From Thermincola carboxydiphila (lineage in GTDB: Bacteria > Bacillota > Thermincolia > Thermincolales > UBA2595), in assembly GCA_016841725.1 (NCBI GenBank), contig JAENYP010000011.1, positions 35,700-99,699 on the forward strand: 64,000 nucleotides of DNA, in the 5' to 3' direction. Every line of letters starts with the position of its first letter. The first letter of the stretch is position 1. Under the pieces are notes generated by a model that saw only the letters and a list, made by a program, of their open reading frames with translations, searched no databases and was not told where the DNA came from. Below, in pieces: positions 3,390-44,997 of this stretch. Both the position numbers and the translations under genes were made by a program.

Positions 3390-3536
3390 GTAACCACCTC
3401 AATGCCATTATTCTTAGCATCGTTAGTCGGAAATATTTGTCTGTCTTTTACGAAGTGGGAATTGACTATGTAAGATAACTGTTGGTTAAAACAACTTGGT
3501 GAAATTTGGTAATGCATAATGGGGAGGTGTGATGGT

Positions 3537-9770: not shown

Positions 9771-9793
9771 CCATGGTGCGAGGTGAAAATAAT

Positions 9794-11242: not shown

Positions 11243-12811
11243 TTGGACGTAAGTTACGTAAGAAACTCTGTAGAAAAATTGCAAAAAAATTCAATCGAAA
11301 TGCAGCGAACGATGAATAAGGAGAAAGCCAAACTACGTTCAATAGTCATCTCTAAAGAGTATATAGATCAAGATGTATCAGCAAGAAAGACTGAACTTAA
11401 AGAGAGACCGGGATTAACTCAACTGCTTGAGGATGTAAAAAGCGGGAAAGTAAAGAGGATTATTGTATACAGGCGTGATAGGTTGGCACGTAAAGCTGCT
11501 CAATATATTGAGATATATCTGTTGCTGATGGAATACGCTGTAGAAATCATTTTTTCATGTCAAGAAGAACCGCCTATTATACCAGGAAGATACGGCAAAT
11601 ATTTTGAGTATTTATTGGCCGGCCTAATTGAAGTTGAAGGGAACAATATCGCATCGAGGATACGTTCTACCAAGATGTCAAACTTTATGGCCGGTAAATG
11701 GCTAGGAAACTTACCTTTTGGATTTAAGTACGATGATAAGAAAGTTGTCCAAAGAGTTGCCAAAGAAATTGCAGTAGTCAAAATTATATTTAATTCTTAT
11801 TTTAATAAAACATCTCTGCGACATATAGTAAAAGAATTAAATGGTAGAGAAGATACTCTATTTCGTGGTAAGAAGTGGGATACCATAAAGGTATTGAGTA
11901 TAATTGACAATATTACATATATGGGTGTCCGGACATTTTCAAACGGTAATGAAGATTGTATAAGGCAAGATTTTGAAGTGCTTAGAGTAATCGAACCGAA
12001 TATTTGGTTATCCTGCCAAAAACGGCGCAACAAGGAGAGAAGAACGGTTGATAAAAATGTTTATCGAGCACCGTTTCTCCTATCCGAAAAATTGGTTTGT
12101 CTTGAATGTAATAAGCCGTTATTAATAAAAAGTCAAAAGGACAGTAAAGGAACAATTAAACAAAAATACATCTGCCCAAATAAAGATGAGCACTTCGATA
12201 GTAAGAAAAGAGTTATTGACAAAGATGAAATAGAACTCCAAATTCAATCAGACATTGAGGTTTACCTCCAAATAGTCGGTTTGGAATTCTTCGATAATAT
12301 ATTGACCCAATACATAAAAACAAATAGCACTTTGATACAAGCTGCCATTAATGATAATAAGCGGCAAATTAAAACTTGTCAAAGCAGGAGAGCTAGACTA
12401 GTCAATAAGATACTGTCTTTAAAAAACGGTACAAGCGAATATGATAAAAGGAAAAGAGAGGTTGAGCAAAATGAAGTTGAATATGAGAGGTTAAATAAAA
12501 CCGTAGAAAATTTATTATTAAAGCTCGATAGAATTCAAGAGTTAGCTAGCCGATCCGGAATGTTACTGGACATTGTCAGAAATAAGCGGATTCGCTTGCA
12601 GGAATTAACTGATGAAGAGAAATTATTAGTAGTGGAAGGAATAATTGAACAGGCAAGAACGGACGGGAAACAGGTAGAAATAAATTACAAATTTCCGTTT
12701 GGAAAGAGTTGGAATGTAATTGAACCTAAGCTTGAAAAGGTTATGGGTATTAGAACTCAACCAATGCATTCCGGTTCTCAAAAAGCAAAATACGATTTAA
12801 GTTGGGGGTGA
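11243..12811 (+). CDS. Large serine recombinase 1
   Basis: A 522-residue large serine recombinase. The N-terminal resolvase domain has YVRNS with Arg7 and catalytic Ser9, then YRRDRLAR near residue 75. It is followed by the recombinase domain (FGFKYDD...), a zinc ribbon (CLECNKPL ... YICPNKDEHF) and a long coiled coil before the C-terminus. The start is TTG with GGGGGTG upstream inside the end of the small ORF. It is paired with a second large serine recombinase 7 bp downstream, as ccrA/ccrB are in staphylococcal cassette elements, though I do not claim orthology. Integrates or excises DNA at att sites that cannot be named from this window. Confidence 0.85.
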   Translation: MDVSYVRNSVEKLQKNSIEMQRTMNKEKAKLRSIVISKEYIDQDVSARKTELKERPGLTQLLEDVKSGKVKRIIVYRRDRLARKAAQYIEIYLLLMEYAVEIIFSCQEEPPIIPGRYGKYFEYLLAGLIEVEGNNIASRIRSTKMSNFMAGKWLGNLPFGFKYDDKKVVQRVAKEIAVVKIIFNSYFNKTSLRHIVKELNGREDTLFRGKKWDTIKVLSIIDNITYMGVRTFSNGNEDCIRQDFEVLRVIEPNIWLSCQKRRNKERRTVDKNVYRAPFLLSEKLVCLECNKPLLIKSQKDSKGTIKQKYICPNKDEHFDSKKRVIDKDEIELQIQSDIEVYLQIVGLEFFDNILTQYIKTNSTLIQAAINDNKRQIKTCQSRRARLVNKILSLKNGTSEYDKRKREVEQNEVEYERLNKTVENLLLKLDRIQELASRSGMLLDIVRNKRIRLQELTDEEKLLVVEGIIEQARTDGKQVEINYKFPFGKSWNVIEPKLEKVMGIRTQPMHSGSQKAKYDLSWG

Positions 12812-12818
12812 TATAAAT

Positions 12819-14396
12819 TTGATCGATAATATATTGACTGTTGGGAAAAAAGTCGCTATATATATCAGACATTCCACTAAGAAGCAGGATGCGTTTCATC
12901 AAACTGAAACGATAAAACGAGTTGTACAAAAATACGGACTTATTGCAATTGAAACGTATTATGATAACGGTAAGAGTTGTTTCCGCAAGCCAATTGAAAA
13001 ACGCCCCGAACTGAATAAACTGCTACAAAATGCAGAATCGGGAGCTTTTGAGATACTATTGATTTATGATGTTGACAGGGTTGTTAGAGAAGTGGCTCAA
13101 AACACTCAAATTTTTTCCCGGTTGTCCGAATTAGGAATAAATGTAATTGCATGCAGTGGTGGAAAGCCACGAGAAGTTGAAATTGATACAATGAAGTTGA
13201 TTCTTTCAGGGATACGAGCTGAATCCGAATCTGACAATATTTCTGTCAGGGTTTATGACTCCTGTTTTACTCGCGTTGCTAATCATGGTGAGTGGCCAGG
13301 GGGGGTACCTCCCTATGGCTGCTATATAACTAAGGATCACAAAATTAAATTCAAACCCGGAAATTCTGAAAATATAGAAAAGATATTCAGGCTGTATCAG
13401 TTAGGGTTAGGGAGTTCAAAGATTGCAGACGCTCTTCCGAAGGGAAGCTACAATGGAGGGAATTGGACCCGTTATGCAGTTGAGGGTGTGATTCGGAACC
13501 CAATTTATGCTGGAATAATGTCCTGGGGAAAACGTCAAAAGAACAACAATAGCAAATATCAAAACAGAGAACTATGGAAAATTGAGACAAAGGCCACTGA
13601 TGTACAGCCCCTAATTTCTATATTTACATTTGAGAGATGTTGGGATTTATATGTAAAAAGAAAGAATGGCGAGATATCATCTTGTGACTATTCGGGCAAC
13701 TATTTACTCAAAGGCATTCTAGCCTGCAAATGCGGTTCCATGATGAAAACAAAGGACGGACGCAACAAGACGAAGGACAAAAGTGGAAGATTAAAAACAT
13801 ATGGAGAATGTTACTATTATTGCCCAGAATGCGGGTACCACAATGTGAAAATTATCCACCATATCGTTGATGAAAAAATATGGGCACTATTTAGATCAAA
13901 ATATGCCTTTTTACCTGAATCACAAGTTTTCAAAAAGATTTATGAACACTTTGGTTCTAGGTTGGACATTTTGAATGATAGATTAGGGGAACTGATGAAA
14001 AGTCGGACCGAACTTAAAGAAACAGAAACCCAAATCATTGATAAAATTGCTGAACATTTAAAGATCGATGGCAAAAATGACCAAAATCTGTTGGCTGCGC
14101 TTGATAACGAAAGAATTAGGCTTAAATTAGAACAAGATGCTTGTGTTACTCAGATTAATAAAATCCTGTTGCAAATTGAAAAAATAGAAAAATACAAAAA
14201 CAGCAAAGAGTATTGGGAACAAGAAATAAAGTTGCTGTCTGCCAATGCTGATAAATTAAAAAACTATGAAAAGAAATATCTTATTCGGCAATTTATTGAG
14301 GAAATAATATTGAATGGCTATTGTTTAAGTATTACGTTTAAATGGGATCTAGAACATGATACTATAGATTATAGGTCTGGAATATTCTGTTTTTAA
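12819..14396 (+). CDS. Large serine recombinase 2
   Basis: A 525-residue large serine recombinase. The resolvase domain has AIYIRHSTKKQ with Arg17 and catalytic Ser19, IYDVDRVVR near residue 85, and the alphaE/linker IRAESESDNIS. The recombinase domain includes NGGNWTRYAVEGVIRNPIYAG, then a zinc ribbon (CKCGSMM ... YCPECGYH) and a coiled coil at about 385-490. The start is TTG at 12819 behind GGGGGTG. It is transcribed with recombinase 1 and the two differ clearly in sequence, so they are not a recent duplication. They may act as a pair, each recognising one half of a site. Confidence 0.85.
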   Translation: MIDNILTVGKKVAIYIRHSTKKQDAFHQTETIKRVVQKYGLIAIETYYDNGKSCFRKPIEKRPELNKLLQNAESGAFEILLIYDVDRVVREVAQNTQIFSRLSELGINVIACSGGKPREVEIDTMKLILSGIRAESESDNISVRVYDSCFTRVANHGEWPGGVPPYGCYITKDHKIKFKPGNSENIEKIFRLYQLGLGSSKIADALPKGSYNGGNWTRYAVEGVIRNPIYAGIMSWGKRQKNNNSKYQNRELWKIETKATDVQPLISIFTFERCWDLYVKRKNGEISSCDYSGNYLLKGILACKCGSMMKTKDGRNKTKDKSGRLKTYGECYYYCPECGYHNVKIIHHIVDEKIWALFRSKYAFLPESQVFKKIYEHFGSRLDILNDRLGELMKSRTELKETETQIIDKIAEHLKIDGKNDQNLLAALDNERIRLKLEQDACVTQINKILLQIEKIEKYKNSKEYWEQEIKLLSANADKLKNYEKKYLIRQFIEEIILNGYCLSITFKWDLEHDTIDYRSGIFCF

Positions 14397-14737: not shown

Positions 14738-15123
14738 ATCTTAATACTGTCTGTTTTTTCTTGCCATAAATAAAAAAGCTAAAAGCTAACCGGAAGTACT
14801 TATAGTCTTATAAGCCCGATAGATGAAACATGGTGGACTAAATGGCTGACTGGGTTGAGACGGCCTGAAAAATATTATAATTGCTATAAAATTATTTTGT
14901 GTCATTAATGTCGGTTATTATTGTCGGAAATAAAGGATTTTGCGATAACAATGTAGTATTAATAACAGCAACAATTAGGAAATTAACATATTAACTGGCA
15001 AACTTTGTGATTGCTGGGAGCGCAAAGGACCAGTCTTAACCCAAAGGGGTCAGTCTGTTCAATTTGCACTTAATTCTTACACCAAGTTATTGGACTTTTT
15101 GCAACTAAGCCGGCAATACTCGG
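14738..15123. other. Gene-free leader region of the WYL regulator
   Basis: No gene is visible. At 15018-15055 there are related strings GGACCAGTCTT and GGGGTCAGTCTG. TTTTTGCAACTAAGCCGGCAA near 15096 can form a small hairpin just before the terminator-like stem. The region looks like a structured leader, but I recognise no riboswitch class. Confidence 0.35.
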
Positions 15124-15177: not shown

Positions 15178-16179
15178 ATGGCAGATAAGGAGTTATCGAG
15201 GTCGCTCAGGCTGACTGGGCTGCAAAACTTCTTGTCGGTAAAAACAGCATCCGGAGGGGCCACTCTTGAAGAGATTATGAAGTTCTGTGATGTAACGGAC
15301 AGGCAGATATACAGGGATCTGAAAGACCTCGAAGAGATCCTTAAAGTGAAAGTAATTAGGCCGAAAAGAGGGCAAAAGGGCGGAATGGCCGGAAGGTATC
15401 GTCTGGACGAAGGTACATCCCTGAGGATTGGGCCCGAGGATGCAGCTGCCATCTTCCTTAGTGTTCTGAGACAAAAAGGGAGCCCCCTGGCGCCAAAGAT
15501 CAACGAGATTAAAGATATTATCCTGGCGGCATTGTATAAGAACCGGTTTAGCGGCTCCCGGAAGGATATTGAAAGCCTGCAGGACAGGGTACATATTGTG
15601 GAAGAACAACTGCTGAATGCAGAAAAATCCGGGGCCATTCTGTTGAAGCTTATGGAAGCCATAAAGGATAACAGACTAGTCAGTATCAAGTATTTTAAGC
15701 CCAATAAGGGTGAATGGTCAAAACGCGATGTGGAGCCGTACGGCCTGACCAGCAAGCACAATAATTGGTACCTGGTAGGGTACTGCCGCAAATCGGAAGG
15801 GCGGCGAACCTTCAGAATCGATTTAATTGACAGTGTATATGTCCTGGGCAAGAAGTTCGATTATCCCGAGGATTTTTGCCTACAAAGCTATTTCGGTGAC
15901 AGTTGGGGGATTTTTTCCAGTGATGAATCGATGCGGATTGTAATAAAAGTGGAGCCGGAACTGGCGTATAGGTTTAAGCTGATAGCATACCATCCCAGCC
16001 AGAAGGTTGAAGAGGAACTGGAGGATGGTTCAGTGGTTGTTTCTTACAAAACATGCGGCATATATGAGTTCACGGGCTGGCTGCTGCAATGGGCAGATTT
16101 TGTAGAGGTGCTTGAGCCGGCTGAAGTGAGGCAGATGATGAGGGAGAAGCTGGAGAGGATGGTCGGGAAGTACGTTTAG
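15178..16179 (+). CDS. WYL-domain transcriptional regulator
   Basis: A 333-residue DeoR/YafY-like regulator. The N-terminal winged helix (about 10-60) has the recognition segment CDVTDRQIYRDLKDLE, the WYL domain (about 155-230) contains the signature NNWYLVGYC with W197-Y198-L199 and RRTFRIDLI, and a WCX-type C-terminal part ends near residue 333. The WYL domain binds nucleic acid or nucleotide ligands, and relatives such as BrxR and CapW repress phage-defence operons. Standing first ahead of the exonuclease-methyltransferase-HerA-NurA-helicase genes, it is the probable local regulator. The ATG at 15178 is behind AGAGGATGATGAG. The 16-bp inverted repeat just downstream (16210-16225) may be its operator. 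Confidence 0.85.
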   Translation: MADKELSRSLRLTGLQNFLSVKTASGGATLEEIMKFCDVTDRQIYRDLKDLEEILKVKVIRPKRGQKGGMAGRYRLDEGTSLRIGPEDAAAIFLSVLRQKGSPLAPKINEIKDIILAALYKNRFSGSRKDIESLQDRVHIVEEQLLNAEKSGAILLKLMEAIKDNRLVSIKYFKPNKGEWSKRDVEPYGLTSKHNNWYLVGYCRKSEGRRTFRIDLIDSVYVLGKKFDYPEDFCLQSYFGDSWGIFSSDESMRIVIKVEPELAYRFKLIAYHPSQKVEEELEDGSVVVSYKTCGIYEFTGWLLQWADFVEVLEPAEVRQMMREKLERMVGKYV

Positions 16180-16209
16180 GGGAGAAACTTTATTAATTAT
16201 TAATAATAC

Positions 16210-16225
16210 TGACTAACAGCTGTCA
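16210..16225. promoter_or_regulatory. Inverted-repeat operator-like site, copy A
   Basis: TGACT-N6-TGTCA followed by CTTT, in the wider context ATTAATAATACTGAC. It lies between the WYL gene and the exonuclease gene and matches the three copies at 41.9, 43.6 and 45.8 kb. Confidence 0.5.
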
Positions 16226-16391
16226 CTTTTTAATTGTATACTTATTCAACTATATAGGAAGAAATTTTGGCAAAGTTTATTTATTAATCCTTAGTATGTT
16301 TTATTTTTAAAATGGCCCGTTTTTTTAATGAAAAGAAGTAAGGTAAGCAAATATTGTTTGGTGCTTTATTGTTGAGGGAGGGAGAGATTTT

Positions 16392-16982
16392 GTGGATTTT
16401 GTGGCTATCGATTTCGAGACTGCAAATGAAAAGAGGTCAAGTGCCTGCTCGATTGGTCTTGCAGTCGTCAGAAAATGCAAAGTTGTTGAAAAACAACACT
16501 ATTTGATTAGACCCCCAATTCTTCGCTTTAACAGATTCAATGTAGCAATTCACGGAATAACAGAACGGGATGTTAAGGATCAACCTACATTTCACGAACT
16601 TTGGCCAAAATTAAAACCGTATTTTGAAAATAGAACTCTTGTTGCTCATAACGCAAGTTTTGATATAAGTGTATTAAGGCATATACTTGATGAATATCAA
16701 ATTGATTATCCGGAATCTGCCTATTCTTGTACTATTGCAATTGCCAAAAAGATGTGGCCACAATTTATCAATTACCGACTTAACACAGTTGCAGAATATT
16801 TGGGACTCAAATTTAAACATCATAATGCTTTAGAGGATGCCCTTACATGTGCAACCATTGGTATAAAGGCATGTGAAGAAGTGGGTGTCAGTGGTTTAAC
16901 CGATTTGACCAAACAGTTACGCATTTCCAATGGACAATTATTTCCTGGAGGCTATCGTCCTTTGCGGAGCAAACGAAAATAG
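16392..16982 (+). CDS. DEDDh 3-prime-to-5-prime exonuclease (DnaQ-like)
   Basis: A 196-residue exonuclease domain with all metal-binding motifs: D7 and E9 in AIDFETAN (ExoI), the Asp in AHNASFDISVL (ExoII), and HHNALEDALT (ExoIII, DEDDh type). It lacks a polymerase-binding extension, so it is a stand-alone enzyme of the DnaQ/RNase T superfamily; a short unassigned tail follows. The start is GTG at 16392 behind GGAGGGAGAG. It lies 103 bp before the methyltransferase gene on the same strand, so it may belong to the HerA-NurA module and trim single-stranded ends. It could also be an independent passenger. Confidence 0.85.
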   Translation: MDFVAIDFETANEKRSSACSIGLAVVRKCKVVEKQHYLIRPPILRFNRFNVAIHGITERDVKDQPTFHELWPKLKPYFENRTLVAHNASFDISVLRHILDEYQIDYPESAYSCTIAIAKKMWPQFINYRLNTVAEYLGLKFKHHNALEDALTCATIGIKACEEVGVSGLTDLTKQLRISNGQLFPGGYRPLRSKRK

Positions 16983-17085
16983 CTAAGATTGTTTCACAGC
17001 ATAATTGCAGGAAGAGGTATGGATTTGTCGAAAAATTAATTCAATTGTTTTTTAGTTAACAAACCTGTAGATGAGTGGTGAGGTT

Positions 17086-17958
17086 ATGGGATACTATTCG
17101 CCTTTACGTTATCCAGGTGGAAAACGCCGCTTGGCTGACTTTGTGCGGCTGGTCATTGAGAAAAATGGAATTAGTGGTGGAACATATGCGGAACCGTTTG
17201 CTGGAGGAGCTGCAGTAGCTCTTTCTATGTTGTTTTCGGGGACAGTAAGTAGGGTTGTTATTAATGATAAAAATCCGGCTGTTTATGCTTTTTGGTATTC
17301 TGTTCTTAATTATCCGGATGAGTTGTCTAAATTGATAAATGATACAAAAGTATCTATCGATGAGTGGCACAAGCAGAGAAAAATCATGGATGTCATAAAG
17401 GAACCCTGCCTTGGATTAGGTTTTTCAACATTTTTTTTGAATCGCACAAATAGATCAGGAATTCTGCTAGGGGGGGTAATTGGTGGCTTGAATCAGGATG
17501 GTCCATGGAAAATTGATGCCAGATATAATAAGGGTGACTTAATAAACCGAATTACTGCTATAGCGAAAAAAAAGGAACAGATTCAAATATATAACCTCGA
17601 TATTTTTGATTTTATTCATGAAGTAGTTCCTGGTTTAGAAGCAAATACATTAATATATTTTGACCCACCATATTTTCATAAGGGCAGCTTGCTTTATGAA
17701 AACCATTTTGAAGAGGCAACACATAAAAGGTTGGCACAAGCAATAACCGAGGAAGTACAACTACCATGGTTGGTCTCTTACGACAATGTGGAAAAAATAA
17801 AAGAGTTTTATAATGGTCACGAAATGGCTGAATTCTCGCTAAGCTATAGTGCTGCTAAACGATATAAAGGAACCGAGATAATGATATTCTGTAACCCGGA
17901 AGCCAGGCCGAGCCAAGAAGAAATGAGCAAGAACAAGATCCGTATTACGATGGTGTGA
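17086..17958 (+). CDS. Dam-type (D12 class) adenine-N6 DNA methyltransferase
   Basis: The order of motifs is that of D12-class N6-adenine methyltransferases: PLRYPGGK at residues 6-13, the SAM-binding AEPFAGGAAVAL, INDKNPAVYAFW, the GGxxQ region ILLGGVIGGLNQDG, and catalytic DPPY at 193-196. The length of 290 residues is normal. The ATG at 17086 is preceded by GTGAGGTT; an in-frame ATG at 17071 has no better site. The stop (TGA) is followed 1 bp later by the GTG of the HerA gene, so they are translationally coupled. Methylation probably marks host DNA so that the nuclease genes downstream spare it; the target (GATC or other) cannot be read here. Confidence 0.88.
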   Translation: MGYYSPLRYPGGKRRLADFVRLVIEKNGISGGTYAEPFAGGAAVALSMLFSGTVSRVVINDKNPAVYAFWYSVLNYPDELSKLINDTKVSIDEWHKQRKIMDVIKEPCLGLGFSTFFLNRTNRSGILLGGVIGGLNQDGPWKIDARYNKGDLINRITAIAKKKEQIQIYNLDIFDFIHEVVPGLEANTLIYFDPPYFHKGSLLYENHFEEATHKRLAQAITEEVQLPWLVSYDNVEKIKEFYNGHEMAEFSLSYSAAKRYKGTEIMIFCNPEARPSQEEMSKNKIRITMV

Positions 17959-17959
17959 G

Positions 17960-20008
17960 GTGAAGTCAGTGTTTGATAACATTGGTAAACTGGTGAAGGA
18001 CAACCCATTAGTAAAACTTGTGCAAAAAGATAACTTTATGGGGTGGATCTACAACATTGATTATGACCAAGCATTAGTAGTAACGAACGACCTATGGAAG
18101 GCACAAGTGCAAGGAGTACCGCATAACTGTTTCTTAGTTGCTGCGACATTCAATCCAGAAGAATTTCTGGAAGTGACAAATGAAGAGCGGGAAGTTATCT
18201 TGCTACGCGTTACCGGATCGACTCATCTGCCTCAAGATGCAGATATGATTCGTGCTAAAATTGATAATTTTCAACAACAAACTGGAGTGTACCTAACTGA
18301 AGGTGGACGCGATTTTGATGACATTACAAAAAATATGCTTCAGTTTAGTGGCCTTGAGTGCAGGGTCTTGGGAACATTTTATGTTCAGGATAACGAATTA
18401 TGGTTGGGCAGCGATATTGAATCATTTGCCGTAGCAGCAAGATTTAACGTATACAGACCGCGGGGCGAGGCTCTTAAGACAATTGTTAATTATGTGGATC
18501 CAATTCGTCGTAAAAAGGCTGAGGAAGATGCTAAGCTGCTGGGAATAGAGAAACCAATAAAACCGTTTCAGATTGGGACAGTTCGGTACACGTCTACCGA
18601 CCGCTTACACCGCGGGGAAGGAGAGACAAAGGTGCCTTTTAGCATCCAGCCCTCTGACTTTTTAGCCCGCCGCACTGCTGTGTTAGGGATGACCCGAACA
18701 GGTAAATCAAATATGGTTAAGCAGACGGTTTCGGTAGTAAAGCGTATTGCAGATGAGTGTGAGGTTAGTATTGGACAGATTATTTATGACATAAATGGTG
18801 AATATGCTAACGCCAACCAACAAGACCAGGGTGCTATTGCGGATATATACTCATCCGACACTATCAGGTATAGAATGGTCAAGACAGATGGATTTGAAGA
18901 ACTGCAAAATAATTTCTACATACAACTACAGGAAGGATTTAATACAATATGTAATGTTATAAGAGAAGACGCCAATAGTTCAGCAGCTGATGTAAAGACT
19001 TTCATGAATATGTCACTCGATGAACCTGATCGTAAAGACTATAAATTACATAATCGGTGGGAAGTAAAAGTAGCTGCTTACAAGACCTTACTTTATAAAG
19101 CTGGTTTCGAATATAATAGTAAATTTCGGGTATCATTTAAGGCTAATGACAATGTAAGAGCCAGAGTAAATGAAGAATTAAATGCTAAACTTGCTAAAGG
19201 CGAGACAACGCTTGATATTAATCCGTCCCAGGGTATGGACTTTAATACAGCAGAAAAATGGTTTCTTGCTGCTCGAAAAGCAAATAAGCAAGGTAAGGAA
19301 ATTGGACAACTAAAATCATCTGATGGCTCATCCAATTGGTTGGATGATGAGACTGTGGCTATATTGAATATGCTAGCAAACAAAAGTAATAACGATGCTT
19401 ATATAAACGGTTATCGCATTTTGGTAGGAGCAAAGAAATATCATTCTCCAAGAAGGTCTCAAGAAGTATCCAATGAGATTTATAAACATTTATGTGATGG
19501 GAAAATAGTAATTTTAGACTTGTCAGTTGGAGATGCAACATTACGTGAAAAAATAAGTAAAAGTATTGCACAAACAGTTTTTGACCGTTCAATGCAGAAG
19601 TTTCTGGAAGGTGCTGTTCCACCAAATATTGTGGTGTATATCGAAGAGGCCCATAACTTGATTGGACGAGACCAGGATCTTACAGAAACATGGCCGCGGT
19701 TAGCTAAAGAAGGAGCGAAATATAAAATTTCATTGGTTTATGCTACTCAAGAAGTTTCATCCGTCCATCCTAACATTTTGGCCAACACAGAAAACTGGTT
19801 CATATCACACCTCAATAACGACAAAGAAATCCGGGAACTTGCGCGCTTTTATGATTTCGCAGATTTCAGCAGGTCTTTGCTGCGTGCTCAAGACGTTGGA
19901 TTTACGCGTATAAAAACGCTGTCAAGTCCATTTGTGGTACCGATTCAGATAGACAAATTTGAACCGGAACGTGAAATTGAACGGCTTAAGAATTTGAAGA
20001 AGGCGTAG
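17960..20008 (+). CDS. herA: HerA-like hexameric DNA-translocase ATPase
   Basis: A 682-residue HerA/FtsK-superfamily ATPase (DUF87 type). An N-terminal HAS-barrel-like beta region (to about 170) is followed by SIQPSDFLARRTAVLG and Walker A GMTRTGKSN (residues 243-251). Walker B is IVVYIEEAHNL (about 554-564), and an arginine-finger region lies in NWFISHLNNDKEIRELARF. HerA rings pump DNA into a partner nuclease; here NurA is the next gene, 11 bp away, as in archaeal end-resection operons. The start is GTG in the string TGAGGTGAAG, 1 bp after the methyltransferase stop. An insertion of about 150 residues between Walker A and B is longer than in compact HerA proteins. Confidence 0.88.
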   Translation: MKSVFDNIGKLVKDNPLVKLVQKDNFMGWIYNIDYDQALVVTNDLWKAQVQGVPHNCFLVAATFNPEEFLEVTNEEREVILLRVTGSTHLPQDADMIRAKIDNFQQQTGVYLTEGGRDFDDITKNMLQFSGLECRVLGTFYVQDNELWLGSDIESFAVAARFNVYRPRGEALKTIVNYVDPIRRKKAEEDAKLLGIEKPIKPFQIGTVRYTSTDRLHRGEGETKVPFSIQPSDFLARRTAVLGMTRTGKSNMVKQTVSVVKRIADECEVSIGQIIYDINGEYANANQQDQGAIADIYSSDTIRYRMVKTDGFEELQNNFYIQLQEGFNTICNVIREDANSSAADVKTFMNMSLDEPDRKDYKLHNRWEVKVAAYKTLLYKAGFEYNSKFRVSFKANDNVRARVNEELNAKLAKGETTLDINPSQGMDFNTAEKWFLAARKANKQGKEIGQLKSSDGSSNWLDDETVAILNMLANKSNNDAYINGYRILVGAKKYHSPRRSQEVSNEIYKHLCDGKIVILDLSVGDATLREKISKSIAQTVFDRSMQKFLEGAVPPNIVVYIEEAHNLIGRDQDLTETWPRLAKEGAKYKISLVYATQEVSSVHPNILANTENWFISHLNNDKEIRELARFYDFADFSRSLLRAQDVGFTRIKTLSSPFVVPIQIDKFEPEREIERLKNLKKA

Positions 20009-20018
20009 AGGTGATAAA

Positions 20019-21428
20019 ATGCCCTACAACAACCAGTATGCAGATAAAAGTTCCCATGTTGATATAGTTCAGAACCCAGAGGTAGCAGAATTTATAGGTA
20101 ACTGTAGTTATATGCTAGAGCCAACTGAACAAGAAGAGGAACAGCTTAAGGAAATGTTTGTGGAGATACCCGAAAGCGATATCCCGTTGCCTGAGCATGT
20201 TATTTCAGTAGATGGGAGCTCTTATGAAGCATCTATAAATAACATGTTCCCTAGCACTAAACTAGGTTACATAAAAATTGGTTGTCTTCTTATTGACCGT
20301 AGTCAGTATAAAAACTTGCGTGTTCACAATAATCGATTCGTCGATCCATTTAGGGTAGCCAAAATGCAGGACAGCAACCGTGCGAACACTTTCAGCCTTC
20401 CCAGCTCCAACTTAGTGTATAAGGGGTCTAAAAGTGTGCAGGCAAGCTTTAGGTATGCTTTAGATGAACAGCTGTACAGACTGCGCACTATAGAAAATGA
20501 ACCGTCATCAAGTATGCGGACAACCCTGTTTCACATGGCTGCAATTCGTACGGGAGAACTGGGTACTAATGATCCAAATGTGCTGAAACTCCATAAATGC
20601 CCTAGTTGCGGAGTAAGTGAGGTCGAAGTTTTTGACATACCAGATGAACAAAAATGCCCGCATTGTGGGGAACCAGTATATCCAACGGACTGCCTTCGAA
20701 TTTGGGAGGAAGTGTCTGAGTACCTTTCCAATACAGCCCCAATAACCCGCCTTATGAATGTCATCGAACATCTAATTCCAGTCCACTACATCCGTATTAT
20801 ACGTGAATTTGAACAGAGCTACTTTGCCAATATTCTTGATAACCTAGCCTTTTTTGTAGATGGCCCTTTGGCTGTTTTTGGTACACCGGCATGGCTGCAT
20901 GCTAGTATACTTCGTTACATAAATAAAATTAACAATGAATTGATAACTCTGGGTAAGCACCGAATGGTTATTATTGGGCTTCAGAAATCTGGTGCGGTGG
21001 TTGATTATTTTAGTATGATTGATCGTCTGATTCCATCAGGGAAAATTTTTGCAGTTAAGGATGAATTTAGGTACAAATATATTACTCCTTGTAACACACC
21101 TTCGAACAATGGTTTTGGGTACGAGACTTACTATGGACAGGACTTTGTTTTAAAAACAGAAAGTGGTCGCACTTTTGTGTTATCAATACCATATCCTTTC
21201 CCCGGTAAGGCGTCTCATGGAACATTTAACTTTGTTCAGGAGAAAGTGAAATTAAGTAATTATCCGGAACTTGGAGTTGCTGTAAGTCTAATACGTGATT
21301 TTGAGTGTGATCTTTATGAAAATGCTGTAGTACCGATTGCGTTAGCCCATAAATACACTGCCATTAGTCTTGAGCCTGGAAGTAAAGTACTTGACTTGCT
21401 TTCACGGGAACACTTCAGGGGTAGGTGA
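20019..21428 (+). CDS. nurA: NurA-domain nuclease
   Basis: A 469-residue protein with the NurA hallmark ISVDGSSYEAS (metal-binding Asp65), the second acidic strand LAFFVDGPLAVFG, and the C-terminal KHRMVIIGLQKSG ... FVLSIPYPF pattern. An inserted zinc ribbon, CPSCG ... CPHCG (about 190-215), is not part of minimal NurA. NurA is a 5-prime-to-3-prime DNA nuclease that works inside the HerA ring. AGAGGTG precedes the ATG, and it ends 4 bp before the helicase gene start, so all four genes read as one operon. Confidence 0.85.
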   Translation: MPYNNQYADKSSHVDIVQNPEVAEFIGNCSYMLEPTEQEEEQLKEMFVEIPESDIPLPEHVISVDGSSYEASINNMFPSTKLGYIKIGCLLIDRSQYKNLRVHNNRFVDPFRVAKMQDSNRANTFSLPSSNLVYKGSKSVQASFRYALDEQLYRLRTIENEPSSSMRTTLFHMAAIRTGELGTNDPNVLKLHKCPSCGVSEVEVFDIPDEQKCPHCGEPVYPTDCLRIWEEVSEYLSNTAPITRLMNVIEHLIPVHYIRIIREFEQSYFANILDNLAFFVDGPLAVFGTPAWLHASILRYINKINNELITLGKHRMVIIGLQKSGAVVDYFSMIDRLIPSGKIFAVKDEFRYKYITPCNTPSNNGFGYETYYGQDFVLKTESGRTFVLSIPYPFPGKASHGTFNFVQEKVKLSNYPELGVAVSLIRDFECDLYENAVVPIALAHKYTAISLEPGSKVLDLLSREHFRGR

Positions 21429-21432
21429 TATC

Positions 21433-24006
21433 ATGGCCCAGGCTACATTGGATACTTTATTCGCTAAAATGAATTTTAAACCAAATAAAAATCAAAAGCG
21501 AGCCATAGAACACGGTGACGGGCCGCTTTTTCTGGTGGCTGGGCCCGGTTCTGGCAAAACGCGTGTTTTGTTATGGCGTGCCGTAAACCTGATAGTGTTC
21601 CATGGAGTCAAGCCCGAAGAAATATTTCTAAGTACCTTTACAGAAAAGGCGGCGTTACAGTTAAGGCAGGGATTATTAGCACTGCTTGCTGTGGCTTCCA
21701 GTGAAACCGGATTACCTTATGACATATCGCAAATGTATGTAGGAACAATGCACTCTTTATGCCACAAATTGATATCGGATAAGAGGATTAATAGAAGAAC
21801 TGGAAGTGGGAGGAAAGCTCCTGTTTTACTTGATGAGCTTGACCAGTACTTTTTTTTGTATGACGAATTCTGGCGGACGGCCGGTAAACATATTGGTGTG
21901 TCCAACATAAATGCTTATATAAATGGATACATAGCCAATAAAACAACTTCTTCAAAACATGAAGCAGTTAGAAACTGTCAGTCCCTCTTTAACAGGTTTT
22001 CAGAAGAATGTTTAACAGCGAGCGCAATGAGAGAAAAGGCTGAAGAAGATGAAATGACAGTAATGGCAGATCTGTATGATTATTATCTTGAGATACTAAA
22101 ATCAGGACCAAGGCCGCGCGCGGATCTTGCATTAATACAGCAAGAGGGATATAGGGTTTTAACTGAGAACCCTGATGCTAAATGTGTGTTTAAACATATT
22201 ATTGTGGATGAATATCAGGATACCAATGCCATTCAAGAAAAAATATACTTTGAACTGGCAGGGCACAAAAACATATGTGTTGTTGGTGATGATGATCAGG
22301 CATTGTATCGCTTTAGAGGTGCAACCGTTGAAAACTTTGTTTTTTTCCCGGATAGGTGTAGGAGTAATGTAAAAGGTGCTAAATTAACCAAAATACCCTT
22401 AGGAACAAATTACAGGTCAAGATCCGGTATTGTTGAATTATATAGTGATTTCATAGAAAAGGAAGATTGGAGACACGAAACAAAGAAGGGTAAGTATTAC
22501 AGGATAAATGATAAAGGAATAACTGCACACAGGACGGATGGTAAAATTGCTGTCGTAGCTACATCGCAGGGGAGATCAGAAGCGGTTTGTGATGAAATAG
22601 CAGAACTCGTCTATGGGCTTATACGTGAAAAGAAAGTGGCGGATCCAAATCAAATTGCATTCTTGTACCCATCATTGAAAAATTGTGCTCATGTTCCACG
22701 GATGATCGATGCGCTTGCACGCCGTGGGCTTTCTGTTTATGCTCCACGTGCCAACAAGTTTTTAGATAACGAAGAGCCGACAGCCATGATTGGCATGTTC
22801 ATTAAGGTTTTTGGCTGCCCAGAAAGAAACCCACAGTATGATTATGGGTCTAACAGGGAATTGTTTGATTGGTTTGATCGTTGTGAAGCACTTGCTGATG
22901 AAATTATTAAAACTGACCGTAAATTAAAGAGCTTTACAAAAGACAAGCAATTGGAATTAGAACGAGTCGCAGGTGATTATCAATACATAGAAAATGAAAT
23001 AATCCGGCACGGATGGAACATGGAAGATAACTTTAACATTCATCTGCATAGGCCGGCTTTTATGAAGATAAAAGTCCTAAGTAAGGAAGCTAAGCGCGAT
23101 ATCAGCGGAAAAAGACTCGAAGCGGTAATCAAGCGCCGGGGCGAACAAGGACGGGCGGTGACTCTGAAATGGTTTGTAAATAGAGTTACTTCTCTTGACT
23201 GGTCTATACTTGATTTGTTTTATGAATTATGTGGATTTGATTATTTTAGAAATATGTTTGATTTAGCTGAAAGTAGAGATGATGAAGGACCTATATGTAA
23301 TCTTGCATTGATAAGTCAGTATTTAGCACGGTATGTGGACGACCATCAAACACTGGTCACCGGGCGGTCAATTCTTACCGAATATTTTATTAACGAGTTC
23401 TTTACGCGTTATTTAAGGGCCCTATTTAAGTTGGGTGAAACTGAGTATGAAGATACAAATGACCCATTTCCACGTGGACGCATACCGTTTTTAACGATCC
23501 ACCAGGCGAAGGGATTGGAGTTTCCGGTAGTAGTATTGGGAAACATTACTCCGGCGAAAGGCCCGCAGAGAGTGGAAGTGCTGGTGAGGCCGTTATTGGA
23601 AGGAGATTATGAACCGTTAGATAGGTCTGGAGAATTTGATACCATGCGTAAATATTATGTAGCTTTGTCTCGTGCCAAGAATCTTTTGGTGATAGCCAAT
23701 ATGCGTGGTCCTGGTATTAGGAGGCACGGGCATTTGGACACCCTGTTGAATAACGTGCCATCAATTGACGATTTGGATCTCGATGACATTCCCGCAGAAG
23801 AAACCTTAGATAGTGAAGTACCCCGGGTATATTCATATACGGCTGATTATCTGTCATATCTTGACTGTCCACGTAAATACATGTTATTTCGTAAGTATGG
23901 ATTTGCTCCGGCACGTACCACGATTATGTTTTTTGGCAGCCTGGTTCACCGTACTATCGAGGATCTTCACCATTTGATGATTGAAAGGAGGGGGGAGGGG
24001 TCATGA
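21433..24006 (+). CDS. UvrD/RecB-like SF1 helicase with the first part of a RecB nuclease domain
   Basis: An 857-residue UvrD/PcrA/AddA-type helicase: Walker A AGPGSGKTR (G37-T43), IVDEYQDTN (D259-E260), GDDDQALYRFRGA, HQAKGLEFPVVVLG and YVALSRAKNLLVIAN. The last ~55 residues read YTADYLSYLDCPRKYMLF ... FFGSLVHRTIEDLHH, which is the opening of a RecB/AddB-type nuclease domain, including the first iron-sulfur cysteine (CPRK) and the GxxVH histidine. The rest of that domain is in the next ORF, in the -1 frame, with a 4-nt ATGA overlap. The ATG at 21433 is chosen over 21370 because of GGGGTAGGTGA upstream. Confidence 0.85.
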   Translation: MAQATLDTLFAKMNFKPNKNQKRAIEHGDGPLFLVAGPGSGKTRVLLWRAVNLIVFHGVKPEEIFLSTFTEKAALQLRQGLLALLAVASSETGLPYDISQMYVGTMHSLCHKLISDKRINRRTGSGRKAPVLLDELDQYFFLYDEFWRTAGKHIGVSNINAYINGYIANKTTSSKHEAVRNCQSLFNRFSEECLTASAMREKAEEDEMTVMADLYDYYLEILKSGPRPRADLALIQQEGYRVLTENPDAKCVFKHIIVDEYQDTNAIQEKIYFELAGHKNICVVGDDDQALYRFRGATVENFVFFPDRCRSNVKGAKLTKIPLGTNYRSRSGIVELYSDFIEKEDWRHETKKGKYYRINDKGITAHRTDGKIAVVATSQGRSEAVCDEIAELVYGLIREKKVADPNQIAFLYPSLKNCAHVPRMIDALARRGLSVYAPRANKFLDNEEPTAMIGMFIKVFGCPERNPQYDYGSNRELFDWFDRCEALADEIIKTDRKLKSFTKDKQLELERVAGDYQYIENEIIRHGWNMEDNFNIHLHRPAFMKIKVLSKEAKRDISGKRLEAVIKRRGEQGRAVTLKWFVNRVTSLDWSILDLFYELCGFDYFRNMFDLAESRDDEGPICNLALISQYLARYVDDHQTLVTGRSILTEYFINEFFTRYLRALFKLGETEYEDTNDPFPRGRIPFLTIHQAKGLEFPVVVLGNITPAKGPQRVEVLVRPLLEGDYEPLDRSGEFDTMRKYYVALSRAKNLLVIANMRGPGIRRHGHLDTLLNNVPSIDDLDLDDIPAEETLDSEVPRVYSYTADYLSYLDCPRKYMLFRKYGFAPARTTIMFFGSLVHRTIEDLHHLMIERRGEGS

Positions 24007-24824
24007 GTAAGGTAGATGACCGTGAGATAGAGCAGTTTCTTGAAAAGGTATTTGATGAAAACTATGAACATTTACATGCAGAAACAGGCCGGGGTATTAC
24101 ACCGGCTATGAGGCAGTTGGCCTGGGAACATGTTCGAGCTTACTGGCGCAGAATGAAGGCGGTGGCGGAAAAAGTTACTGAAACTGAGGTGCGTCTTTCT
24201 CTACCCTCACAGATCAGCCCTACCGGACGGCAATACACCATCGAAGGCGTAGTTGATGTTGTGCGTGAGGGGGATGAGACCATCATCTATGACCTCAAAA
24301 CGCACAACCCTGATATCGTAATGATAAATAAAGAGGCCTATGCCGGCCAGCTAAATGTTTATGCTCATATCTGGCAAAAATTACGTGGTAGTACCCCGGA
24401 TGACATTGCCATCATTGCCACAGAACCTCCTGCCGAGGTCAGAAAAGCACTACAGGAGAATGACAAAGATGCACTTGAGCAGGAAATGGCAAACTGGGAT
24501 CCGGTCGTGCGGCTCAATTTCGATCAAAATGCGGTAGATAAGTGTGTTACACATTTTGGACAAGTTGTAGATAACATTGAAAATGGTCGTTTTGTTCCGC
24601 CTGCTCCAGAGGTGCTTGGTAAAAAGAAACCAGGACAAAAGGCTCCTTTTGGTACGGCAGTCTGCCGGCACTGTGATGCCCGCTTTTCTTGCCGGTCATA
24701 TGAAAAGTATATGGCTTCAAAGGGACGCAAGAAAACAGATGTTATTGTAAGTGATGGTTCAGAATTAGAAGCAGAACGAGAAGATTTTCTGGAAACCATG
24801 GTGGATGCAGAAACCGGTGTTTAG
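24003..24824 (+). CDS. RecB-type PD-(D/E)XK nuclease (second part of the domain)
   Basis: A 273-residue protein with the catalytic core GVVDVVREGDETIIYDLKT (D85, D97, K99) and the QxxxY motif AGQLNVYAHIW. C-terminal cysteines CRHCDARFSC would complete a 4Fe-4S cluster with the CPRK cysteine that sits in the upstream ORF. This strongly suggests that the two polypeptides assemble into one RecB-like domain or are made as one by frameshifting on the G-run just before the junction (AGGAGGGGGGAGGGG). That purine run is also an excellent ribosome site for ATG 24003. Fold relatives are AddB, RecB and Cas4. Confidence 0.85.
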   Translation: MSKVDDREIEQFLEKVFDENYEHLHAETGRGITPAMRQLAWEHVRAYWRRMKAVAEKVTETEVRLSLPSQISPTGRQYTIEGVVDVVREGDETIIYDLKTHNPDIVMINKEAYAGQLNVYAHIWQKLRGSTPDDIAIIATEPPAEVRKALQENDKDALEQEMANWDPVVRLNFDQNAVDKCVTHFGQVVDNIENGRFVPPAPEVLGKKKPGQKAPFGTAVCRHCDARFSCRSYEKYMASKGRKKTDVIVSDGSELEAEREDFLETMVDAETGV

Positions 24825-25008: not shown

Positions 25009-27051
25009 ATGATAACGAAACAAGCACTAGGCAGCACCCTTTTTGGGATGGCGGATATCTTGAGGGACAAGGTTGAGGACTACAAGTCTTATATCCTCTC
25101 GCTACTCTTTTTTAAGCGACTCTCTGATAACTATACATGGGAGATTGAGCACGGTATTCAGGAATTCAAGAAAGAGTTTGGAGTCGAACCCAACGAAAAG
25201 CAGAAGCAAAAAATCATTGCAGATAAACATGACTTCACCATCCCAGATGGATGTTTTTGGGAAGACGTACGAAAAGCTCCGCTTGATAAAAAGAACGATG
25301 CTCTAAATAAGGCAGTTAATGCAATTGCTGACACCAACGCCGCTCTTAAAGGCGTCATTAATACTGTGCGCTGGAATGAGCCATCACCTGACGGTTCCGG
25401 CGGGAAAAAGCTTCATCCGGAAGTTCTAAGTCTTCTTGTGAGTTATCTTGATGCGGTGGACTTGAGTAATCGCAACGCTTCAGTTGATGTTCTAGGAGAT
25501 GCTTATGAATATTTAATTAAACGGTTTGCTGACGAAAACAAGGGAGGCACTACCGCCGGACAGTTCTATACCCCGCAGGAAGTAGTTGACATTATAGTTC
25601 GTTACCTCAAGCCTCAAAAAGGGAACACATTGTATGATCCCACTTGTGGCTCTGGTGGCTTCTTAATAAATGCCGCCAAATACATTAAAAGAAACACGGG
25701 TACTCAAAAGAATATACGCCTATATGGGCAGGAAGATGTCTGGAACACTTGGGCGATTGCAAATATCAATATGATCCTACATGGTCTTGATGCCTCAATT
25801 AAAAAAGGTGACACTTTAAAAGAACCAAAATTTACAGAAGAAGACAACGATCTTGCTATCAAAACTTTCGATTTAGTGATGGCTAATTTTCCATTTTCAC
25901 AAGAAAATTGGTGGAAAAATGGCGAACCTAAAAAAGATAAAAAAGGAAAAGCAGTTACCAAAAAAGATGGCTCACCTCAACTAGAATATCCTGGGAAAGA
26001 AGATTTCAACGATCCATATGACCGTTTTGAGTATGGAATCCCACCTTTCTCAAACGGGGATTTTGCATTTTTACAGCATATAGTCGCTTCCATGAATGAA
26101 AACGGAAAGGCGGGTGTGGTTTGTCCGCAAGGCGTATTGTTCCGTGGACAGCCAGAAAAAACAGAAGAGGAAGATGGCCAGAACCGAAAAGCAGATGATG
26201 AGTATTTGATTCGTCGCGGCTTTTTACAAGGGGCGGTCAATAAAGATGGTGAATTTGTTCGAGGAATCAATATCATAGATGCCATTGTCGTGTTGCCAGA
26301 AAAGATTTTCTATGGAACCACTATTCCTGGTTCAATTATACTTTTCAATAAAAACAAACCGGACGAACGGAAGAACAAAGTTTTGATGGTTTATGCAGCC
26401 AAGGAAGGTTGGTATAAAGAGGAATCAAATATGAATGTCTTGCAACCTCAGGACATTCTGAGGATTTCCACTATACTTGAATCTTGGGGTGATATTGAAA
26501 TTGCCAAAGAGTGGATCACATCCCAAAAGGCACGGCTTAGAGAACTCATTCAAGAAGAACTTGATTTCAAGAAGGGTGAAATTGAACTTGATTCGCAAGA
26601 AGACATTGAATTAGCAGAAGAAAAGCTCCGAAAAGCAGAGACACAAGTAAAAGCTAAAGAAGAAGATGGCAAGAAGCCAACGAAAACAGAGTTGAATAAT
26701 TTGGAAAAGGCCAAAGATGCCCTTGAAAAATTAGTTACCCAGAAAAAACAACGTATTACTGAGGCTGAGGAACAAGCCGAAAAAGAACGAACTGCCATTG
26801 ACGAAGTAGAAACTGAACTGCTCACCATGTTGGCTGATCCAGAGTTGCGGAAACGTTATTTCTCTGTTGTTGAGATGGAGGAACTGGAAGAAAATGAGTT
26901 TAACCTCAATATACCTCGCTATGTGGATACTTTTGAGCCCGAGGATGAAATTGACTTAGGTGAAGCGATTGAAGGATTTAAAGCTACCTTGCAGGAAGAA
27001 CAAGCAGTTGATGACTTGCTTTCGAGATTGATGGAGGCGTTTAAACAATGA
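25009..27051 (+). CDS. hsdM: Type I restriction-modification methyltransferase subunit
   Basis: A 680-residue HsdM: N-terminal helical domain (LGSTLFGMADILRDKVED), SAM motif DPTCGSGGFL (about 209-218) and catalytic region FDLVMANFPFS (about 287-297). The usual NPPF reads NFPF here. A long charged coiled coil (about 505-615) precedes the C-terminal NIPRYVDTFEPEDE, typical of HsdM. AAGGAG precedes the ATG by 8 bp. With HsdS it methylates adenines in a bipartite site and with HsdR cuts unmodified DNA. It overlaps hsdS by 4 nt (ATGA). The 184-bp gap before it shows no clear promoter, so it may have its own weak one. Confidence 0.92.
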   Translation: MITKQALGSTLFGMADILRDKVEDYKSYILSLLFFKRLSDNYTWEIEHGIQEFKKEFGVEPNEKQKQKIIADKHDFTIPDGCFWEDVRKAPLDKKNDALNKAVNAIADTNAALKGVINTVRWNEPSPDGSGGKKLHPEVLSLLVSYLDAVDLSNRNASVDVLGDAYEYLIKRFADENKGGTTAGQFYTPQEVVDIIVRYLKPQKGNTLYDPTCGSGGFLINAAKYIKRNTGTQKNIRLYGQEDVWNTWAIANINMILHGLDASIKKGDTLKEPKFTEEDNDLAIKTFDLVMANFPFSQENWWKNGEPKKDKKGKAVTKKDGSPQLEYPGKEDFNDPYDRFEYGIPPFSNGDFAFLQHIVASMNENGKAGVVCPQGVLFRGQPEKTEEEDGQNRKADDEYLIRRGFLQGAVNKDGEFVRGINIIDAIVVLPEKIFYGTTIPGSIILFNKNKPDERKNKVLMVYAAKEGWYKEESNMNVLQPQDILRISTILESWGDIEIAKEWITSQKARLRELIQEELDFKKGEIELDSQEDIELAEEKLRKAETQVKAKEEDGKKPTKTELNNLEKAKDALEKLVTQKKQRITEAEEQAEKERTAIDEVETELLTMLADPELRKRYFSVVEMEELEENEFNLNIPRYVDTFEPEDEIDLGEAIEGFKATLQEEQAVDDLLSRLMEAFKQ

Positions 27052-28358
27052 AGAGTTTAATTGACACAGTACCATCAGATTGGTATATACAGCAAGTACG
27101 ATTTTTTTCAAACACATATTCAGGTGGAACGCCGCTGAGAAATAATGAGCAATTTTATACAGGCAATATCAACTGGGTAAAATCTAGTGAGTTAAAGAAT
27201 AAGTACTTATATGATACTGAAGAGCATATTAGCGAAGAGGCAATAAAAAAATCTAGTGCTCGTTATGTAGAGCCAGATACTATTTTATTTGCCATGTATG
27301 GAGCTACAGCTGGCGATATTTGTATTTTAAAGACTAAATCAACAACAAACCAAGCGGTATTAGCAATTCCAATTAACAAGAATGAAATTATAAACGAGTA
27401 TCTATATTATCAGTTAAAGTATAAAACGGAGAAATTGAAATTTATTACGCAAGGTGGTGGACAACCGAACTTAAGCAAGGGAATTGTTGATAAAACTCCT
27501 ATTTCTTATCCTCAATCTTTCGCCGAACAAAAAGCTATAGCTGGAATACTCGCTAAAGTTGACGAAGCTATTGAGTCGGTTGAAAAAAGCATCAAGGCAG
27601 CGGAGCGGCTCAAAAAATCACTCATGCAGAATTTGCTCACTGGGAAACTTAAGCTGGATGGTACTTGGCGCAGTGAGGATGAGTTTATTGATACTAGTAT
27701 AGGCCTAATACCCAAAGGATGGCGTTTAGTAAAAGCAAAAGATTTATGTCTGAAAGTTACTGATGGAACACATGATACACCGTCTCCTTCTCAAGAGGGG
27801 TATCCATTGGTAACATCCAAAAACTTGAAATACAATGGAGTCGATTTTGACGGATGCTATTTAGTTAGTAGAGAAGATTATGTAGAGATAAACAAAAGAA
27901 GTAAAGTTGATCAATACGATATTCTATTTGGAATGATTGGAACTGTTGGCAACCCGCAGGTGGTTACACAAAACCCCGTTGAATTTGCTATTAAGAATGT
28001 TGGTTTATTTAAAACTAATGGTGATAAACAACTATCTATCTGGATTAAAAACTATCTATCTTCTAACATGTTCGAAATATACAAATTTAAACAACAGGCA
28101 GGAACAACACAACAATTTGTTTCTCTTGGATTTTTAAGAAAAATCCCAATACCTCTACCTCATAAGAACGATGAAGTAGATTACAAGCAAGTTCAGGAAA
28201 TAAACTTAAGAATCAAGGGGATAATTGATATTCTGTCCGCAAAAGAGAAGAAACTGGATTCACTGAAAACCCTCAAAAGATCCCTCATGCAAAACCTCTT
28301 GACAGGTAAGGTTCGAGTGGACGTGGAAAAAACTAATACACTACTGGAGGAGGTGTAA
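27048..28358 (+). CDS. hsdS: Type I restriction-modification specificity subunit
   Basis: A 436-residue HsdS with two target-recognition domains and the two internal helical repeats that follow them: SLMQNLLTGKLKLDG near residue 195 and SLMQNLLTGKVRVD near residue 420. The nearly identical repeats space the two half-sites. The second domain begins GLIPKGWRLVKAKDLC. The recognition sequence cannot be deduced. It starts in an ATGA overlap with hsdM and ends 1 bp before hsdR. No recombinase or silent hsdS copy lies next to it, so phase-variable switching is not indicated. Confidence 0.92.
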   Translation: MKSLIDTVPSDWYIQQVRFFSNTYSGGTPLRNNEQFYTGNINWVKSSELKNKYLYDTEEHISEEAIKKSSARYVEPDTILFAMYGATAGDICILKTKSTTNQAVLAIPINKNEIINEYLYYQLKYKTEKLKFITQGGGQPNLSKGIVDKTPISYPQSFAEQKAIAGILAKVDEAIESVEKSIKAAERLKKSLMQNLLTGKLKLDGTWRSEDEFIDTSIGLIPKGWRLVKAKDLCLKVTDGTHDTPSPSQEGYPLVTSKNLKYNGVDFDGCYLVSREDYVEINKRSKVDQYDILFGMIGTVGNPQVVTQNPVEFAIKNVGLFKTNGDKQLSIWIKNYLSSNMFEIYKFKQQAGTTQQFVSLGFLRKIPIPLPHKNDEVDYKQVQEINLRIKGIIDILSAKEKKLDSLKTLKRSLMQNLLTGKVRVDVEKTNTLLEEV

Positions 28359-28359
28359 A

Positions 28360-44843: not shown

Positions 44844-44997
44844 CGGTACACAAAGTCAGCCCAAATTAAATATGACAGCATTTAAAAAGGAAATCCGGTT
44901 TTCTGCTAGAATTTATCTGCAATATTAGTATTTATTATTAAGAGAGATTGAGGTTCCATAAAGTCTGGCTAATCTAACAGTACTTCAAGGAGGCTCT

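Follow-up and report, generated by a model that had tools for sequence, protein, structure and literature searches.

A TdpAB-like HerA-NurA pair linked to an adenine methylase and followed by a split UvrD-RecB nuclease in a genomic island of Thermincola carboxydiphila

TdpABC is a defence system of thermophiles in which TdpC marks self DNA by phosphorothioation and this mark restrains TdpAB, a HerA-type ATPase paired with a NurA-type nuclease. The same two families resect DNA ends in archaea and Deinococcus (PMC9960219, PMC12977600). HerA-type ATPases are also partnered with immune effectors in SIR2-HerA and DUF4297-HerA, and a passage of PMC12839542, citing Iyer et al. 2004, proposes HerA/FtsK operons generally for anti-invader systems. 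The Hma system combines a helicase, an m5C methylase and a DUF499 ATPase (PMC8565338, PMC12839542). Here we describe an operon from a 64,000-nucleotide stretch of Thermincola carboxydiphila DNA (the window), in which a D12-class methylase gene stands beside HerA and NurA genes and is followed by a UvrD-RecB pair. TdpABC, which a preliminary description of the locus did not name, is the nearest known system. With a probability of about two in three, the operon would be a restriction-modification-like defence in which methylation gates restriction by a TdpAB-like translocase-nuclease.

The preliminary description had listed seven ORFs with named domains, for all of which the coordinates, strand and Pfam domains were confirmed (Table 1), and had regarded the genes from the methylase to the nuclease as tightly coupled, with WYL and the exonuclease just ahead. 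Tight coupling was found from the methylase through RecB. The intergenic gaps are 1 bp (methylase-HerA), 10 bp (HerA-NurA) and 4 bp (NurA-UvrD, with UvrD starting at the ATG at 21433; an alternative TTG start at 21370 would give a 59 bp overlap with NurA), and the UvrD and RecB genes overlap by 4 bp (ATGA). These five genes form one tightly packed block (17071-24824), composed of a core unit, D12 methylase-HerA-NurA (17071-21428), and then UvrD-RecB (21433-24824). With gaps of 212 bp (WYL-DEDDh) and 88 bp (DEDDh-methylase), the WYL and DEDDh genes are therefore merely nearby. No WYL counterpart was found in any of the relatives' loci, and no relative has a DEDDh gene adjoining the operon: the two loci in which DEDDh was seen, L022 and L004, carry it at an unrelated position. 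The two genes are thus at most local additions, and a seven-gene system was ruled out by their lack of conservation in the relatives. Promoter and terminator scans gave signals no higher than in shuffled sequence. The type I genes hsdM-hsdS-hsdR, which start 184 bp behind the RecB ORF, are a separate system that could supply DNA ends.

Table 1. Coordinates of the operon genes and of other features of the island within the window
Feature	Coordinates	Strand	Match or remark
Caspase-like protease	3519-5069		Island
PADLOC candidate PDC-S06	5897-7984		Full-length match, 3.2e-262
Tyrosine integrase	9773-10996		Island
Two tandem large serine recombinases	11243-14396		Island, beside the tyrosine integrase; weak CcrB/XisF similarity
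WYL-WCX regulator	15178-16179	+	Pfam WYL+WCX; upstream of operon; possibly a local regulator
DEDDh (DnaQ-like) exonuclease	16392-16982	+	Pfam RNase_T 3.6e-23; upstream of operon
D12-class N6-adenine DNA methyltransferase, 295 aa	17071-17958	+	Pfam MethyltransfD12 8e-21; presumed self-marking
HerA-type hexameric DNA-pumping ATPase, 682 aa, TdpA-like	17960-20008	+	Pfam DUF87/HerA 1.8e-9
NurA-type nuclease, 469 aa, TdpB-like	20019-21428	+	Pfam NurA 6.7e-9; four-cysteine ribbon-like insert
UvrD-family SF1 helicase, 857 aa from ATG	21433-24006	+	Pfam UvrD 8.8e-48; C-terminal tail is the start of the nuclease domain
RecB/Cas4-like ORF, 273 aa	24003-24824	+	PDDEXK_1 1.3e-13; rest of the split PD-(D/E)XK nuclease
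hsdM-hsdS-hsdR, type I restriction-modification genes	25009-31422	+	Pfam and PADLOC
TmtA-like 1872-aa protein (Sacsin, NO VEIN domains), then NERD-helicase	32367-39697		Island

The catalytic motifs are intact throughout the family alignments. Walker A (GMTRTGKS) and Walker B (YIEEAHN) of HerA are invariant, as are the two residues singled out in the preliminary description, HerA K249 and NurA D65. A HerA profile run against the PDB gave TdpA (8wet) as the top match at 9.9e-27, the next chain following at 1.2e-16. The NurA profile retrieved only zinc-ribbon-type chance matches among PDB sequences, and a fold search was therefore used for this protein. The AlphaFold2 model of NurA (pLDDT 86), for which three rows from annotated plasmid records were left out of the structure alignment, had its nearest fold in chain G of 8wfd (3.5e-8), a structure of TdpAB together with AMPPNP and DNA; the archaeal and Deinococcus HerA-NurA folds ranked behind, at 3e-4 to 5e-4. 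HerA, nearest to TdpA by sequence, and NurA, nearest to a TdpAB chain by fold, thus point independently to TdpAB. Against the named anti-phage HerA families, HerA scored 62.7 bits, far under their 800-bit cut-offs, and unlike in SIR2-HerA and DUF4297-HerA the effector is NurA, with a methylase.

The operon resembles TdpABC in that a HerA-type ATPase and a NurA-type nuclease are encoded beside a DNA-modifying enzyme, and differs from it in three respects. An adenine methylase takes the place of the phosphorothioation gene, and no phosphorothioation-type domain was detected among the island genes in a Pfam scan. NurA has 469 aa compared with 358 aa in the TdpAB chain and contains the additional insert, whose cysteines 194/197/213/216 are invariant or nearly so in the family alignment. 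Finally, UvrD-RecB is added.

In 28 of 37 tabulated relatives (with L025 and L034 as near copies), the distance between HerA-NurA and a DNA methylase is no more than 190 bp. The relatives span many phyla and include proviruses and two Vibrio temperate phages; nine of the 37, three cyanobacterial plasmids among them, have no methylase beside HerA-NurA. The linkage is far above chance: in the 19 long loci, 17 methylases adjoin HerA-NurA, compared with 0.32 expected at the background rate, which was taken from the 2 further methylases elsewhere in 289 kb of these loci. When a phylum-wide sample was picked by HerA alone, a methylase was present in six of the seven loci, window included, and NurA occurs in every relative with room for it. 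The linked methylases are of the D12 type, in two branches, or of the N6/N4 type, and stand ahead of HerA-NurA in the same orientation, behind it in the same orientation, or behind it and convergent. Methylase-HerA-NurA is a real, mobile module that encodes a methylase together with a putative restricting nuclease. The proposed conservation of the gene set as a block held for this module and, in 8 relatives, for UvrD-RecB directly behind NurA; it failed for WYL and DEDDh. In the Clostridia-type loci L012, L015, L022, L025 and L034, a Schlafen/AlbA_2-domain protein is encoded just upstream of the methylase.

The HerA search of genome contigs yielded 18 loci, 17 of them at 60-74% identity, from Chloroflexota, Bacillota, Cyanobacteriota, Bdellovibrionota, Pseudomonadota and one archaeal MAG. 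Further relatives were found in six viral contigs, the two Vibrio phages and six more genomes of the window's phylum, while plasmids of cyanobacteria, haloarchaea and Deferribacter carry more distant ones. HerA is carried by 7 of 398 genomes of the phylum, this genome counted, and is absent from both congeners searched. The distribution is thus sporadic and mobile, with few genomes and with phages, plasmids and proviruses. Many relatives are MAG contigs, so that individual placements can be wrong; the overall pattern is independent of any single one. The Vibrio phages (L051 and L052) are nearly identical and carry HerA-NurA and a convergent methylase beside an integrase, HerA being annotated as one ORF in L051 and as two in L052. 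No DNA-level match to the Vibrio phage copy was found in E. coli genomes.

Flanks of the window at 21-590 and 44951-45801 sit only 1.6 kb apart in the congener G001, which identifies the intervening ∼43 kb (about 590-43978) as an island at a variable site. A different gene, of 394 aa, lies between the same flanks in G001, and a stretch of 72 bp upstream of WYL (14870-14940) matches at 83% the sequence immediately ahead of the different cargo gene at this site in that genome. With two tandem large serine recombinases beside a tyrosine integrase, the island may be mobile in the manner of an SCC-type cassette. The operon's neighbours in the window include the type I system, PDC-S06 and the TmtA-like protein, the last of which, together with the NERD-helicase, is probably another defence system; in the relatives, DruE, restriction systems of types III and IV and PD-lambda-5 are among those found nearby.

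This setting bears on two other readings. The operon could be a DNA end-resection or repair module of a mobile element, as archaeal HerA-NurA would suggest, with a methylase for the element's own regulation. HerA and NurA here are of the same families and fold as the archaeal and Deinococcus end-resection complex and are likewise encoded together, and UvrD-RecB resembles AddAB-type enzymes. However, the operon is very sporadic, coupled to a methylase and found in defence islands rather than at a repair locus, no mre11-rad50 is present among its annotated neighbours in the window, and its nearest relatives are TdpA and TdpB and not the repair HerA-NurA; we consider this explanation quite improbable. 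The other reading is a DNA-transfer module. In the Thermus element ICETh1, a HerA-family ATPase, a NurA-like nuclease and a type IIG restriction enzyme promote DNA donation and are needed for transjugation (PMC5365140). The gene combination is similar and the island carries recombinases, but conjugation or competence genes were not found among the annotated island genes and the set is found across many phyla, both in phages and in defence islands, which leaves a role in transfer with very little likelihood.

The operon methylase is the sole D12 methylase of the genome, and its DPPY motif and NRT..SGI block are invariant in 14 relatives. It matches the PADLOC model PD-Lambda-5_B at 7.6e-115 and clusters with its counterpart from a genuine PD-lambda-5 pair in L020. 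PD-lambda-5 has been described as a compacted RM+Abi system (PMC9519451), which favours an abortive infection reading: lost or blocked host methylation would unleash HerA-NurA on host DNA and kill the infected cell. HerA-NurA is no part of PD-lambda-5. The operon lacks PD-Lambda-5_A, for which no match was obtained in the genome (one model, without positive control) or among the annotated neighbours. Nothing here specifically indicates cell death, and we regard abortive infection as unlikely.

The preliminary description took Hma as the nearest idea. Like Hma, the operon encodes a helicase together with a methylase and an ATPase; however, the methylase is D12 and not m5C, the ATPase is HerA and not DUF499, and NurA is present. 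These methylase and ATPase types rule out Hma membership, and neither DUF499 (HmaC) nor an Hma model occurs among the Pfam and PADLOC matches. The statement that no named system has exactly this set was borne out: PADLOC 2.0 contains no such five-gene system, none of the five genes reached the NCBIfam 20 cut-off for a named family, and no description of a HerA-NurA-methylase defence system was found in the literature searched.

UvrD and the RecB ORF, previously taken as a helicase and an independent nuclease, represent a single ancestral helicase-nuclease that has been divided between two genes. The UvrD tail covers PDDEXK_1 positions 9-50 and the RecB ORF positions 54-247, and the joined sequence covers 9-247; joining raised the PDDEXK_1 score from 51.9 to 80.3 bits. 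In three relatives, the joined sequences scored 60.5, 57.9 and 59.2 bits, compared with 32.9, 33.9 and 34.9 bits unjoined. The four cysteines and the PD-(D/E)XK motifs are complete only across both ORFs. One cysteine, the first of the cluster (C812 in the 857-aa count), is located in the UvrD tail together with a conserved histidine and the motif LVHRT, and these tail motifs are found in all nine loci with a UvrD-RecB pair. The other three belong to the CxxCx5C motif of the RecB ORF, which also bears GVVD, YD(L/I)KT (YDLKT here) and QLNVYAH, motifs present in 8/8 complete copies. A model of RecB alone was of medium quality (pLDDT 72) and gave weak fold matches, about 0.01, to AddAB and the Cas4-type SSO0001, a result to be expected when part of the domain is missing. 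The identical split point in all nine loci, in most of which an AG-rich stretch precedes the RecB start, ruled out a frameshift or assembly error at the junction.

A 961-aa protein of a Phaeobacter plasmid, followed by a type III-like methylase and a TnsA-type nuclease, is a single chain and aligns across the junction; for this reason the split is most likely derived from a fused helicase-nuclease. AddAB, AdnAB, Cas4 Fe-S nucleases and the plasmid UvrD-PD-(D/E)XK fusions beside type III systems likewise combine a UvrD motor with a PD-(D/E)XK nuclease containing CxxCx5C; unlike in these, the nuclease domain here is cut internally between two overlapping genes. The split RecB itself had no match on sequenced plasmids. 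At three plasmid loci (L053, 6001-13302; L054, 5266-12507; L055, 6010-14549), UvrD-nuclease, which is fused in L053 but annotated as two separate genes in L054 and L055, is followed by a site-specific methylase and then by a gene of TnsA or DEAD type; this order is perhaps an extended type III-like system. The viral contig L039 (8298-16057) encodes an AAA ATPase next to a protein fused to a RecB-like nuclease (43% to that of the window), followed by type III Mod and Res; we take the N-terminus of the fused protein to be like the S8-peptidase partner of such AAA ATPases.

UvrD-RecB directly behind NurA is confined to about a quarter of the loci, the window and 8 relatives. It was not seen in the closest relative, L008, whose contig ends about 400 bp behind NurA. 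This distribution raises the alternative of two systems head to tail, with methylase-HerA-NurA complete alone and UvrD-RecB coming from a separate, usually type III-like restriction system that lacks Mod and Res here and may by now cooperate with the type I enzyme. Type III Mod and Res genes are next in line in several Chloroflexota loci and in the archaeal MAG. Both lie behind RecB in L013, L014 and L021, while L011, L017 and L019 have Mod homologues nearby. The UvrD-nuclease homologues of the three plasmids precede the Mod-like methylase and TnsA/DEAD protein in the absence of HerA-NurA. Supporting the same alternative, UvrD and RecB distances correlate at 0.91 and each correlates with HerA at 0.31-0.35 (window left out), values of moderate weight, given how little the HerA distances vary. 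On the other side, the pair begins within a few bases of NurA in 9/9 loci and is therefore co-transcribed with HerA-NurA, and UvrD-RecB is intact here although Mod and Res are missing; a search of the genome with the type III Mod protein, run without positive control, gave no match. The head-to-tail arrangement is a serious contender, at clearly less than even odds. We regard UvrD-RecB as an optional accessory module within the same transcription unit.

The preliminary description envisaged a self/non-self system in which methylation protects host DNA while a HerA-NurA plus RecB-like machine degrades unmarked DNA. The recurrent linkage to methylases, the occurrence in defence islands and prophages and the kinship with TdpAB argue for this idea, which is kept without WYL and DEDDh, without an independent helicase and nuclease and without Hma as its model. 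In the methylation-gated restriction that we favour, the D12 methylase would methylate adenine at a sequence motif across the host chromosome. By analogy to TdpAB and to HerA-NurA homologues, the HerA hexamer ring would pump double-stranded DNA into a cutting NurA dimer, and methylated motifs would block or disengage the machine as phosphorothioation does in TdpABC. Unmethylated entering DNA, or ends produced by neighbouring restriction systems, would be destroyed. UvrD and RecB, two co-translated polypeptides predicted to form one iron-sulphur nuclease domain, would then unwind the ends so produced and degrade them. Counting against methylation gating, the operon has no evident sequence-reading subunit, and nine of the 37 relatives lack a methylase beside HerA-NurA; the four-cysteine insert of NurA is a candidate reading element.

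We class the set as a restriction pair of the TdpAB kind, with methylation as its mark. More tentatively, it may belong to a widespread, uncatalogued form of restriction that dispenses with a sequence-specific endonuclease, in which shredding by HerA-NurA would be halted by N6-methyladenine and a two-protein iron-sulphur nuclease would reinforce one branch. If the methylation-gated reading is right, the TdpAB-type translocase-nuclease would be a general restriction engine, untied from phosphorothioation and able to pair with different marks, two methylase families being seen beside HerA-NurA here. The operon makes it testable how a DNA pump with no known sequence-reading domain would distinguish marked from unmarked DNA, and the split iron-sulphur nuclease would provide a natural case of one catalytic domain assembled from two helicase-nuclease subunits.
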